Assembly: GCF_025291715.1 (NCBI RefSeq)
Contig: NZ_JAMBIZ010000002.1
Coordinates: forward strand, 1 to 64,000
Length of the DNA stretch: 64,000 nt
Direction: 5' to 3'
Source: Metasolibacillus sp.
GTDB taxonomy: Bacteria > Bacillota > Bacilli > Bacillales_A > Planococcaceae
The notes under the pieces were generated by a model. The model did no database searches and had not been told where the DNA came from. It saw only the letters and a list, made by a program, of their open reading frames with translations. Position 1 is the stretch's first letter; each line of letters opens with the position of its first letter. Made by a program: the position numbers and the translations under genes. Positions 24,166-62,268 of this stretch are shown here, in pieces.

Positions 24166-24218
24166 TTTATTCTACGTTTTCAAGTTTTTATTCTACCTTT
24201 TCAGAAATTTATTCTACG
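24166..24218 (-). repeat. 21-bp periodic array A (3 units)
   Basis: TTTATTCTAC(G/C) begins at 24166, 24187 and 24208, exactly 21 bases apart, with similar T-rich joins (GTTTTCA, CTTTTCA, GTTTAGC). On the minus strand the unit reads GAAAACGTAGAATAAA plus about five variable bases. It lies in the gap between the convergent DUF1450 and AcuI-like genes, past the minus-strand terminator at 24270-24300. Confidence 0.8.
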
Positions 24219-24221
24219 TTT

Positions 24222-56168: not shown

Positions 56169-56239
56169 TTTTCCCCTCTTGCCATCCCTATATTAAATAA
56201 TATAACAAATAAAATCCATAAATGGTAAAACAGATTATG

Positions 56240-56298
56240 CTATTCGAGCGATTTTAGCTTCTATTTGATCACTTTTATCAGCTATTCGATCACTTCAT
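56240..56298 (-). repeat. 21-bp periodic array C (3 units)
   Basis: CTATT(C/T)GA begins at 56240, 56261 and 56282, 21 bases apart. On the minus strand: TGAAGTGATCGAATAGCTGAT, AAAAGTGATCAAATAGAAGCT, AAAATCGCTCGAATAGCATA. It begins within about three bases of the T-run of the bmrD terminator. Confidence 0.75.
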
Positions 56299-58110: not shown

Positions 58111-59862
58111 CTAGATGCCCCCCTTTTCCACTTGCTGCTCTAGTTGCTGCAATTCATACATTTCGTAGTAACGTCCTCTTAATTCCATCAATTCCTCATG
58201 CGTGCCCTTCTCAACAACCGCCCCTTCATGCATAACGATAATGATATGTGCATGCTGAATCGCACTTAAGCGATGTGATGTAATAATCGTTGTCGCATTT
58301 TCACGTGAAGCTTTTAATGCCTGTAAAATCGCTTCCTCCGTTTTTGCATCGACCGCAGATAAGGAATCATCCAATATTAATAGCTCTGGCTCCATCATTA
58401 ACGCACGCGCAATCGAAATACGCTGCTTTTGCCCTCCTGAGAGCGAGACACCACGCTCACCAACAATCGTTTCATAGCCTTCTGTAAAGCCTAAAATATC
58501 GTTATGAATGTATGCTAAGCTTGCCGCATGCTCCACCTGTTCCCTTGGTGCATCTGGATTTGTAAAAGCAATATTTTTATAAATCGTCGATGAGAACAGG
58601 AAATGATCCTGTGGTACATAGCCAATCGCCTCACGCAATGCAAGCATTGTATAATCATCAATGCGAATATCTCCATATTTGATATAGCCTTCATAGCCTT
58701 CAAATTCACGCAGCAATAGCTTTAAAATTGTCGTTTTGCCTGAACCCGTTTTCCCGACAATCCCAAGTGTTTGCCCTTGCTTTAAATCAAAGTGGACATT
58801 TGTTAAGGATGGTGTCGCATCATCTGGGAATGTAAACGAATCCACATGGAATGACAAATCCCCTTTTGGTCGCATATTGGAGGCTCCTGTTTTATCCATA
58901 ATTTCAACAGGCTCATTCAATAGCTGCTCAATACGGTCATACGAAGCCGAACCGCGCTCCACGATGTTAAACAGCATACCAATTGCTAGCATCGGCCATA
59001 CGAGCAAGCCTAAATACGTCGTAAATGCGATTAAATCACCAATCGTCATTGCACCCTCTGTAATAAACTTCGCACCGAATCCTAAGCTTAGGAAAAAGCT
59101 GACACCAATGACAAGGCTAATTGTCGGATCAAACAGCGAATCGATTTTCGCTACGCGCATATTTTTATCGACAACATCGTTCGATAACTGCGTAAAATCC
59201 TCGATATCATCCTGCTGCTGCCCGAATGTTTTAATGACCTTCATCCCTGAAATGCTTTCCTGCGTTTTATCATTCAAATCTGAAAATGCAGCCTGCGCAT
59301 GACGGAATCGTTCATGTAGCAGCTTCCCATAATAGCTTGTTAAGAAAGCCATAATTGGCATTGGCACTAAGGCAATCAGCGTCAAGCGCCAATCAATCGT
59401 AATTGCCATCGCCAAAATGACAAATGTTCCTGTCGTAATGGAATCGAATAATGTTAAAACACCGCCGCCTGCTGTTTGCTGTACAGCAGAAATATCATTC
59501 GTCGCATGTGCCATCAAATCCCCAACACGACGTTGCTGATAAAAGGATGGCGACATTTTTGTAAAATGGCGAAACAGCTTCTCACGCAATGTTTTCGCCA
59601 AATAGTTCGATGACCCAAAAATCATCTGACGCCAGTAATAGCGGAGAATATACATCAAAATAGCGACGACAACAATAATGCCTACCCATTTTGTTAAAGT
59701 GCCTACTGTCAGCGTCCCTTCACCGATTTCATCAATGGTATAACCAATGACCTTCGGTGGCACAAGCTGCAAAATTGCAACAAGTGTTAACGTTAAAAGA
59801 CCAATTACATACTCTCGCCTACGCTCTTTAAAAAACCAGCCGAGCTTTCGAAATACTTTCAT
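58111..59862 (-). CDS. bmrC: ABC exporter half, YheI/BmrC-like
   Basis: 583 residues from the ATG at 59862, five bases after GGTGGGG. MKVFRKLGWFFKE opens as in YheI, followed by exporter helices and a nucleotide-binding domain with Walker A VGKTGSGKTT and signature VSLSGGQKQ. The Walker B motif is LLILDDSLSAVDAKTE, with Asp in place of the catalytic Glu, the known degenerate half of BmrCD-type heterodimers. It heads the two-gene operon; no bmrB-like leader peptide was found upstream. Confidence 0.9.
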   Translation of the reverse strand: MKVFRKLGWFFKERRREYVIGLLTLTLVAILQLVPPKVIGYTIDEIGEGTLTVGTLTKWVGIIVVVAILMYILRYYWRQMIFGSSNYLAKTLREKLFRHFTKMSPSFYQQRRVGDLMAHATNDISAVQQTAGGGVLTLFDSITTGTFVILAMAITIDWRLTLIALVPMPIMAFLTSYYGKLLHERFRHAQAAFSDLNDKTQESISGMKVIKTFGQQQDDIEDFTQLSNDVVDKNMRVAKIDSLFDPTISLVIGVSFFLSLGFGAKFITEGAMTIGDLIAFTTYLGLLVWPMLAIGMLFNIVERGSASYDRIEQLLNEPVEIMDKTGASNMRPKGDLSFHVDSFTFPDDATPSLTNVHFDLKQGQTLGIVGKTGSGKTTILKLLLREFEGYEGYIKYGDIRIDDYTMLALREAIGYVPQDHFLFSSTIYKNIAFTNPDAPREQVEHAASLAYIHNDILGFTEGYETIVGERGVSLSGGQKQRISIARALMMEPELLILDDSLSAVDAKTEEAILQALKASRENATTIITSHRLSAIQHAHIIIVMHEGAVVEKGTHEELMELRGRYYEMYELQQLEQQVEKGGI

Positions 59863-60001
59863 CATTTCCCCACCTTTATATTTTGACTTGCCTATTTTAA
59901 CAAATATTCGAATATTATTGAATAGTAATTCAATAATTTGTTTCGACTTTTGAAATATTTCAGTCAAAGGACGGAGATAAGACTTAGGAACAGGGAGATG
60001 C

Positions 60002-60094
60002 GAGCGAATTTCAATTTTCGATGAGCGAATTCGGGCTTTCGTTGAGCGAAAATCGTACTTTGATGAGCGAATTTTACTATTCTTTGAGCGAAAA
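60002..60094 (-). repeat. 21-bp periodic array D (5 units)
   Basis: GAGCGAA (the last copy GAGCGAAAA) begins at 60002, 60023, 60044, 60065 and 60086, exactly 21 bases apart. On the minus strand the units alternate between TTTTCGCTCAA and AATTCGCTCAT openings, then about ten variable bases. The array runs directly into the T-run of the natB terminator. Confidence 0.85.
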
Positions 60095-60136
60095 TAAAAA
60101 AACGCTTGAAATCTAGGATTTCCCCAGATTCCAAGC
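60095..60136 (-). terminator. terminator of natA-natB
   Basis: GCTTG-AATCT pairs with AGATT-CAAGC (one mismatch) and is followed by T7 on the minus strand. Confidence 0.8.
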
Positions 60137-60146
60137 CTCCTCTATA

Positions 60147-61379
60147 TTAAGTTGTCACCTTAAACACCGTTTTAATTTTTTGAATCAATCCGCCTGTTGA
60201 GTAAGTTAATACACTACGTTTATAGAAGGATATGCTCACTAAATAAAGCACGAATGTTGATGCAACTAAAATTGCTAAAGAAATTATTGGCTCAAGCACA
60301 CCTAAATCTGTTGCACCAATGCGCATTGGCATCACCATTCCAGATGTGAACGGCACATACGATGCGATTGTCACAAGCAATGTATCAGGATTTCCTGTTG
60401 CTGTTACCATAATAAAGAATGCCACAATAACTAAAATCATTGCAGGCATCATCGCCTGTGAAGCTTCCTCTGGCTTTGATACGAGCGAGCCAAGTAGTGC
60501 TCCAATAATTAAAAACATGAAAATTGTCACGAGTAAAAATGCAGCGACATACAATAAATATTGACCGTGAAGCTCTGCTAACACTTCACTTACCATCGCC
60601 CATTTAGCACCGCCATCAGTTAGCTTTAACAGGACAAATGACGTACCAAACATCACAGCGAATTGCGTTACAGCAACTAAAAAGATGCTCATAACCTTCG
60701 CTTTAAAATGCGTTTCTGCTTTAACGCTTACTAGCAGCATTTCCAAAGCACGTGAGCCTTTTTCTGATGCAACATCAGAAGTGACAATGGATAAAAATGA
60801 AATAACGAATATATACACTAGGAAGCCAGCAATATAGGAAACAAGCATACCTGCTGATTTTTGTTCCTCTGACTTGCCATCTGTCGCCGCTTCATTTAAT
60901 GTGTTCATTTCAATTTGCGGTGCAGCATTTAACAGCTGTGCAGACTGCTCAGGACTTAAATTTAATTGATCCATCGCATAAAATTGTCCAATTGTATTGG
61001 CAGTTGCTGATAATTGTTGCTGCATATTTAACGGCAACGGGTCAAGCGACACTAAATTAACTGCCAATGTTGTATCGGCTGCGGAAAAAATCAGCGCTGC
61101 CACGTACTCTTCTTTTTTCAAGGCCTCTTCTGCCTCTGTCGTGGAGGCTAGCTCTGTCCATACGATATCGCCATCCTCTAGCATAGCACTAACATCAAAG
61201 CTTGTTGTATTGACATAAATCATTTGATCAGGCTCACTAGAAAATAACGCTTCCTTTATGTCTGACCAGAAGAAAAATACGGAAATCCCTAAAATATACA
61301 AGACCGTCATAATAATAAACGATTTAGCCTTGACCTTTTGCTTATAATTTTCCTTCAATAAAATCATAAATTTAGACAT
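60147..61379 (-). CDS. natB: ABC-2 type permease, NatB/YhaP-like
   Basis: 410 residues from the ATG at 61379 (AGGTGG five bases upstream). An N-terminal membrane segment, a large extracellular domain (about 45-180), then five or more segments with SEKGSRALEMLLVSVKAETHF and SKPEEASQAMMP, as in NatB/YhaP. Partner of the ATPase whose stop it overlaps. NatAB exports sodium; YhaQP is a paralogue of unknown substrate, so function is inferred. Confidence 0.88.
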   Translation of the reverse strand: MSKFMILLKENYKQKVKAKSFIIMTVLYILGISVFFFWSDIKEALFSSEPDQMIYVNTTSFDVSAMLEDGDIVWTELASTTEAEEALKKEEYVAALIFSAADTTLAVNLVSLDPLPLNMQQQLSATANTIGQFYAMDQLNLSPEQSAQLLNAAPQIEMNTLNEAATDGKSEEQKSAGMLVSYIAGFLVYIFVISFLSIVTSDVASEKGSRALEMLLVSVKAETHFKAKVMSIFLVAVTQFAVMFGTSFVLLKLTDGGAKWAMVSEVLAELHGQYLLYVAAFLLVTIFMFLIIGALLGSLVSKPEEASQAMMPAMILVIVAFFIMVTATGNPDTLLVTIASYVPFTSGMVMPMRIGATDLGVLEPIISLAILVASTFVLYLVSISFYKRSVLTYSTGGLIQKIKTVFKVTT

Positions 61380-62268
61380 GCGTGCCACCTACCTTGTCTT
61401 TGAAAATCTCGTCGAGTGACAAGTAATCTAAGCTAAATTTTTCAATATATGTACCGCTCGATACGACATCAAACACACCTTTCGCATATTGCTCATCCTC
61501 TAAAGTAAGCACATATTGCTCGCGCTCTTCCTTCACTGATTTCACACCATCAAGCTTGGCTAGCTTATCCGCAGACAGCTCTGTGCGAATCGTTAGCTTC
61601 GTTTTACCATACTGCTTTTTCAAATCTAAGAGCGAGCCTGAAAACAGTGAAACACCGCGCTTTAATAAGCAAAGATGGTCACATAGCTCCTCGACATTAT
61701 CCATTTGATGACTTGAAAATAAAATCGTCATACCTTGCTCTTTTAATAATAAAATCGCATTTTTTAATAAATCCTTATTCACTGGATCTAGTCCACTAAA
61801 TGGCTCATCTAAAATTAAAAACTTTGGCTTGTGAATAAAGCTAGCAATTAATTGTACCTTTTGCTGATTTCCCTTTGATAATGTTTCCGCCTTATCATTG
61901 CGCTTTTCCTCAAGCTCAAAGCGCTTAATCCAAAAATCAGCCTCTTTTTTAACAGCTGCTTTCGTCATGCCACGCAGCTGTCCAAAATAAATAAGCTGCT
62001 CCTCCACCTTCATTTGTGGGAAAATGCCGCGCTCCTCTGGCAAATAGCCAAGCAAGTCACGATTCACATTATTAATAGGCGTTCCTTCCCACGTAATCAC
62101 GCCCTCTGTCGTCTCCTGCAAATCTAAAATCATGCGAAACGTTGTCGTTTTCCCTGCGCCATTTTGGCCAATTAATCCAAAAATCTCACCAGGTGAAATG
62201 GAAAAATTTAAGCTTTGAACGGCTGTAAAATCTTTATAACGCTTCGTTACATTTTGTAATACTAACAA
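61372..62268 (-). CDS. natA: ABC transporter ATPase, NatA/YhaQ-like
   Basis: 298 residues from the TTG at 62268 (GAGAGGAG nine bases upstream; a TTG at 62277 overlaps it), equal to YhaQ. Walker A GLIGQNGAGKTT, signature LSKGNQQKVQ, Walker B KFLILDEPFSGLDPVN, H-loop SSHQM, then a C-terminal regulatory domain. Drives the permease encoded directly downstream; the two genes overlap by eight bases. Confidence 0.9.
   Translation of the reverse strand: MLVLQNVTKRYKDFTAVQSLNFSISPGEIFGLIGQNGAGKTTTFRMILDLQETTEGVITWEGTPINNVNRDLLGYLPEERGIFPQMKVEEQLIYFGQLRGMTKAAVKKEADFWIKRFELEEKRNDKAETLSKGNQQKVQLIASFIHKPKFLILDEPFSGLDPVNKDLLKNAILLLKEQGMTILFSSHQMDNVEELCDHLCLLKRGVSLFSGSLLDLKKQYGKTKLTIRTELSADKLAKLDGVKSVKEEREQYVLTLEDEQYAKGVFDVVSSGTYIEKFSLDYLSLDEIFKDKVGGTHV

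Follow-up and report, generated by a model that had tools for sequence, protein, structure and literature searches.

The five evenly spaced GAGCGAA repeats downstream of natB in Metasolibacillus sp. (array D) are one copy of a genome-wide set of short DNA-site arrays that step by two helix turns and lie just past gene ends, and several types of these arrays point along the direction of DNA replication. They look like docking strips for an unidentified protein, a function that is inferred from sequence and not shown, and searches of the literature, restricted to open papers, returned no description of them. The arrays are placed here, with caution, among bacterial interspersed intergenic repeats, but they differ from REP elements, CRISPR, coding repeats and neutral minisatellites in the defining features tested.

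The window analysed is a 64,000 nt stretch of the genome, and the features discussed are listed in Table 1. The observation made in the earlier note holds: GAGCGAA occurs on the plus strand at 60002, 60023, 60044, 60065 and 60086 without drift in spacing, and at only one other plus-strand position in the 64 kb. The best self-match of the spacer at any lag of 15–29 is 37/60, against a maximum of 34/60 in 2000 shuffles. On the minus strand, which is the coding strand of natB, the order is natB stop, terminator hairpin, seven T, three bases, and then TTCGCTCA every 21 bp, so that array and T-run do merge. A small correction is that the fifth core is degenerate, reading TTCGCTCG on the minus strand. 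The two unit types described in the note are real at this locus, where the four full cores read CTCA-A, CTCA-T, CTCA-A and CTCA-T.

Table 1. Features of array D, its flanks and the other arrays of the window.
Position (nt)	Strand	Feature	Remarks
60001–60008	-	Unit 5 core	Degenerate, TTCGCTCG; in 21-bp register with the others
60022–60029	-	Unit 4 core, TTCGCTCA	T type: CATCG
60043–60050	-	Unit 3 core, TTCGCTCA	A type: CAACG
60064–60071	-	Unit 2 core, TTCGCTCA	T type: CATCA
60085–60092	-	Unit 1 core, TTCGCTCA	A type: CAAAG; CAACG in the conspecific genome G093
60001–60095	-	Array D, family F1	Five cores at 21-bp steps (the last degenerate); canonical leader absent; predicted intrinsically curved
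60096–60136	-	natB intrinsic terminator	Stem 60104–60136, T-run 60096–60102; abuts the array
60147–61388	-	natB-like ABC permease gene	Upstream of the array
58111–59862	-	ABC transporter gene	Downstream of the array; ATG start inferred at 59862 in place of the TTG at 59967
56239–56295	-	Sister array, family F3	AAGTGATCRAATA, 21 bp; beside a terminator; ortholog in stretch L166
31894–31993	-	Sister array, family F7	GTCGCTGATATAT, spacing 20,21,20,21; next to a terminator T-run
24166–24221	-	Sister array, family F6	GAAAACGTAGAATAAA, 21 bp

The array is not a local oddity. A search of the whole genome with a pattern allowing spacings of 18–22 bp found 28 pairs, all at exactly 21 bp, against 0 for the reversed control. 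The other genomes of the genus hold 2–46 pairs each, while the rest of the family and class hold almost none with this core. This array type (family F1) recurs at a dozen or more loci in this genome and across the genus, always at 21 bp, with unrelated spacers but an 8-bp core that is 95% conserved. Arrays of 3–6 units are common, and most begin with a shared leader, GTTCAAAAGTNNTGATTCGCTCA, which gave 17, 16, 77, 8 and 12 hits in five genomes and none for the control. Array D lacks this leader, and its first unit abuts the T-run. A scan of viral contigs for two GAGCGAA 21 bp apart was partial, returned mostly isolated single pairs and was uninformative.

A motif-free count of repeated 7-mers in intergenic DNA showed peaks at 21, 42 and 63 bp and lesser peaks at 11, 20, 31–32 and 41 bp, near multiples of the helix repeat, against a background of about 4 per distance. 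The stretches of this genome and of G003, a genome with the same natB neighbourhood, were partly chosen for arrays, but the named Lysinibacillus/Ureibacillus loci, which were taken for natB, show the 21-bp peak too. Cataloguing the arrays revealed at least five sister families, three of them in this window, with other cores, mostly of the form AAA-n-CGC-NN-ATA, but the same 20–21-bp step. The generic pattern CGCNNATA-13N-CGCNNATA gave 123 hits against 3 for the control in this genome, 105 against 1 in its conspecific, 620 against 2 in the genome G229, and tens in genomes of other Bacilli families (G127, G279, G252), while most of 300 genomes were at chance. The reversed control pattern, ATANNCGC at 21-bp spacing, is itself strongly enriched (up to 94 hits) in five family members (G013, G031, G035, G238 and G265), suggesting another dialect.

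The interpretation given in the earlier note, that the array may be a 42-bp two-unit repeat and may form one functional unit with the terminator, is partly supported. The 42-bp repeat is supported as a tendency, since neighbouring units differ in type more often than in within-array shuffles (F1, 61/94 against 49.8, P=0.003; F2, 41/49 against 29.8, P<0.0002). Arrays of G229 alternate G-CGCTCATAGAA and C-CGCTCATAGC for up to about 30 units at three unrelated loci, and the spacing of F7 is mostly 20,21,20,21. Orthologous arrays, however, differ by single 21-bp units within the species (stretches L055/L158 and L060/L138) and by exactly 42 bp between species, against M. meyeri (L056/L182). In aligned orthologous units from three array pairs only, the core is 84/88 identical between species and the rest of the unit 86/133 (P=2e-8).

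These changes in unit number, together with the near-identical long arrays of G229, would suit an ordinary minisatellite arising by neutral tandem duplication of a 21-bp or 42-bp unit, and duplication alone would also give exact 21-bp spacing in any single array. As a complete account this is very unlikely, because the same core, leader and step occur at many unrelated loci instead of being private to one, the core is conserved against a variable spacer, and the 21-bp peak appears in intergenic DNA of several genera independently of motif. It survives as the mechanism of copy-number change, a feature that the arrays share with STRR and minisatellites.

The joining of terminator and array is supported as an association only. 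An inward-pointing terminator T-run lies within 25 bp of 38/92 arrays, against 35/552 random placements; for F1 the figure is 21/37, mostly 2–11 bp away, but for F5 it is only 2/20. Of 87 classified arrays, 3 lie between divergent genes (baseline 141/624) and 31 between convergent genes (baseline 102/624), so that divergent promoters are avoided and convergent gene ends favoured. The terminator and ORF callers were home-made, and although the same callers were applied to arrays and controls, the random placements were not matched for gene orientation. Adjacency is also not obligatory: in the ndiopicus genome (L032, L310) the same natB–ABC spacer holds the leader plus three 21-bp units with the altered core ATTCGCC, separated from the natB terminator by an inserted small ORF. 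Relatives with the same flanking genes and terminator but no trace of the array, and no similar arrays elsewhere, had been named in advance as a case that would overturn the note's reading. G003 and several Lysinibacillus/Ureibacillus do have the flanking genes without the array, but similar arrays are abundant elsewhere, so the refutation does not apply. In M. meyeri synteny is broken after natB.

Translated heptad repeats (21 bp = 7 codons) or an RNA element are the least probable of the explanations considered. Some frames are open through the array and multiples of the unit keep the frame, but the mixed 20- and 21-bp steps of F7 and F5 break any frame, all eight core bases are conserved including wobble positions, and the array lies beyond the terminator. 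Rfam scans of the spacer and of array-bearing loci returned no family, a tRNA scan near the G229 arrays found none, and the predicted RNA fold is dominated by the terminator stem. A CRISPR reading, which requires near-identical repeats of over 20 bp with unique spacers of similar length, also fails, as only 8–10 bp are conserved and the spacers are 11–13 bp.

Unexpectedly, the sister families are replication-polar. In the conspecific one-contig genome G093, where dnaA at 1.010 Mb and the GC-skew switches fix origin and terminus, arrays point with replication at 51 of 53 loci: F6 at 17/17, F3 at 7/7 and the CGCNNATA families at 27 of 29 loci up to 3.42 Mb, one single hit inside an ORF being excluded and both exceptions being F7. 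In sampled stretches the count was 48/50, and in convergent regions, where gene direction is balanced, 18/18 follow the leading strand, so gene direction alone was rejected as the cause. Orientation follows the replichore in F2, F3, F5 and F6 but not in F1 (20 lead : 17 lag; about 10 of 15 loci in G093). F1 arrays in G093 are sparse around the origin (1 locus between 0.1 and 1.3 Mb) and commoner toward the terminus. F1 arrays are instead predicted to be more curved than column-permuted arrays (mean z 3.3, calculated with unreferenced wedge parameters). Intrinsic curvature as the general explanation was rejected for F2, F5 and F7, kept for F1, and is suggestive for F3.

The explanation tentatively favoured, though short of an even chance, is that array D belongs to a dispersed class of helically phased sites at which a sequence-specific DNA-binding protein would dock on one face of the DNA and assemble cooperatively, probably as a two-site (42-bp) pair. 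Such an assembly, just past gene 3′ ends and intrinsic terminators, could form a barrier or boundary that stops read-through and antisense RNA polymerase and possibly constrains supercoils. Protein roadblocks that cause RNAP dissociation, with orientation dependence for Rap1p and dCas9, are established (PMC10310618). The analysis itself establishes the arrays, their phasing, the conservation of the cores, the family dialects, the placement, the change in copy number by units, the polarity of the sister families and the absence of coding or hairpin logic. That a protein binds, that binding is cooperative, and that the outcome is a barrier or boundary instead of another nucleoid function are inferred from these features alone. 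In favour are a step that is a multiple of the helix repeat, the 20/21-bp steps of F7 and F5, which suit helical phase but not a reading frame, the core shared by unrelated loci within each family and, for F1, the leader. One function for all families is uncertain, as F1 is not polar while its sisters are, and relatives do without the array beside natB. Iterons and other phased protein-site arrays likewise have direct repeats about two helical turns apart with cooperative docking on one face, but iterons lie at replicon origins with their initiator gene, while these arrays are dispersed at dozens of gene ends.

The polarity is better explained either by a directional barrier or by a role in replication or chromosome architecture, in which the array would guide a DNA-tracking or DNA-shaping machine along the replichore, like E. 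coli BIMEs (gyrase or nucleoid-protein sites) or polar motifs such as Chi or KOPS, and gene ends would only be where such sites are tolerated. This alternative remains a strong rival, helped by the predicted curvature of F1, but is judged less likely than not, since the F1 family to which array D belongs is not polar, and since Chi and KOPS/SRS are single motifs that need no 21-bp arrays, whereas the present elements are intergenic arrays. A more speculative possibility, not excluded but unlikely on present evidence, is an undescribed system of Bacillales in which paralogous DNA-binding proteins, each reading its own core dialect, assemble just past terminators as directional barriers. Several families would then be installed only in the orientation of replication, so that replisomes and leading-strand transcription pass while head-on or antisense transcription is stopped. 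If the arrays do dock a protein, a conserved layer of chromosome organisation or transcription-boundary control has gone unread in Metasolibacillus and relatives, and patchily in other Bacilli families. The polarity of the sister families offers a directly testable link between gene ends, replication direction and transcription conflicts.

The arrays resemble the REP/BIME elements of enterobacteria and pseudomonads in being short, dispersed, extragenic, enriched at gene 3′ ends, present as several families per genome and targeted by insertion sequences; E. coli REPs bind gyrase (PMC3733652, PMC1525189). REPs, however, are 20–40-bp palindromes tagged GTAG/CGTC and arranged in alternating orientation in BIMEs, while the present arrays are direct repeats with an 8-bp core at a 20–21-bp step, polar to replication in the sister families, and their family logos show no tag and, apart from a TTCG-N5-CGAA in some F1 units, no palindrome. 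A selfish or mobile element of the REP/REPIN kind, spread by a transposase and without host function, with terminator-proximal DNA simply a safe place, is considered unlikely. The many families per genome, the dialects per species, the defined leader end of F1, the polarity of several families (which HUH enzymes on the lagging strand would explain) and the IS66 elements inside arrays of G229 speak for it. Against it, arrays are old and orthologous between species (L053/L175, L062/L183), spacers of different loci are unrelated while cores stay conserved, which is the reverse of recent copying, and the polar families have no palindrome, while F1, which has a small one, is not polar.

In G229, IS66-family elements with 8-bp target duplications sit inside arrays three times in 320 kb (L093, 667–6735; L102, 15955–18968; L096, 587–2471), and another insertion interrupts a further array, showing that the arrays are transposon landing sites, as REPs are for insertion sequences (PMC1525189). 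Long arrays also produce spurious open reading frames of up to 231 aa on both strands (L093, 3386–4081 and 3406–4071; L102, 15924–16199) that would be annotated as heptad-repeat hypothetical proteins. The F5 arrays of G093 (L150, 4605–5497; L149, 9516–10067; L160, 7585–8244) are much longer than those of other families, with over 20 units, and step by 20 bp more often than by 21 bp.
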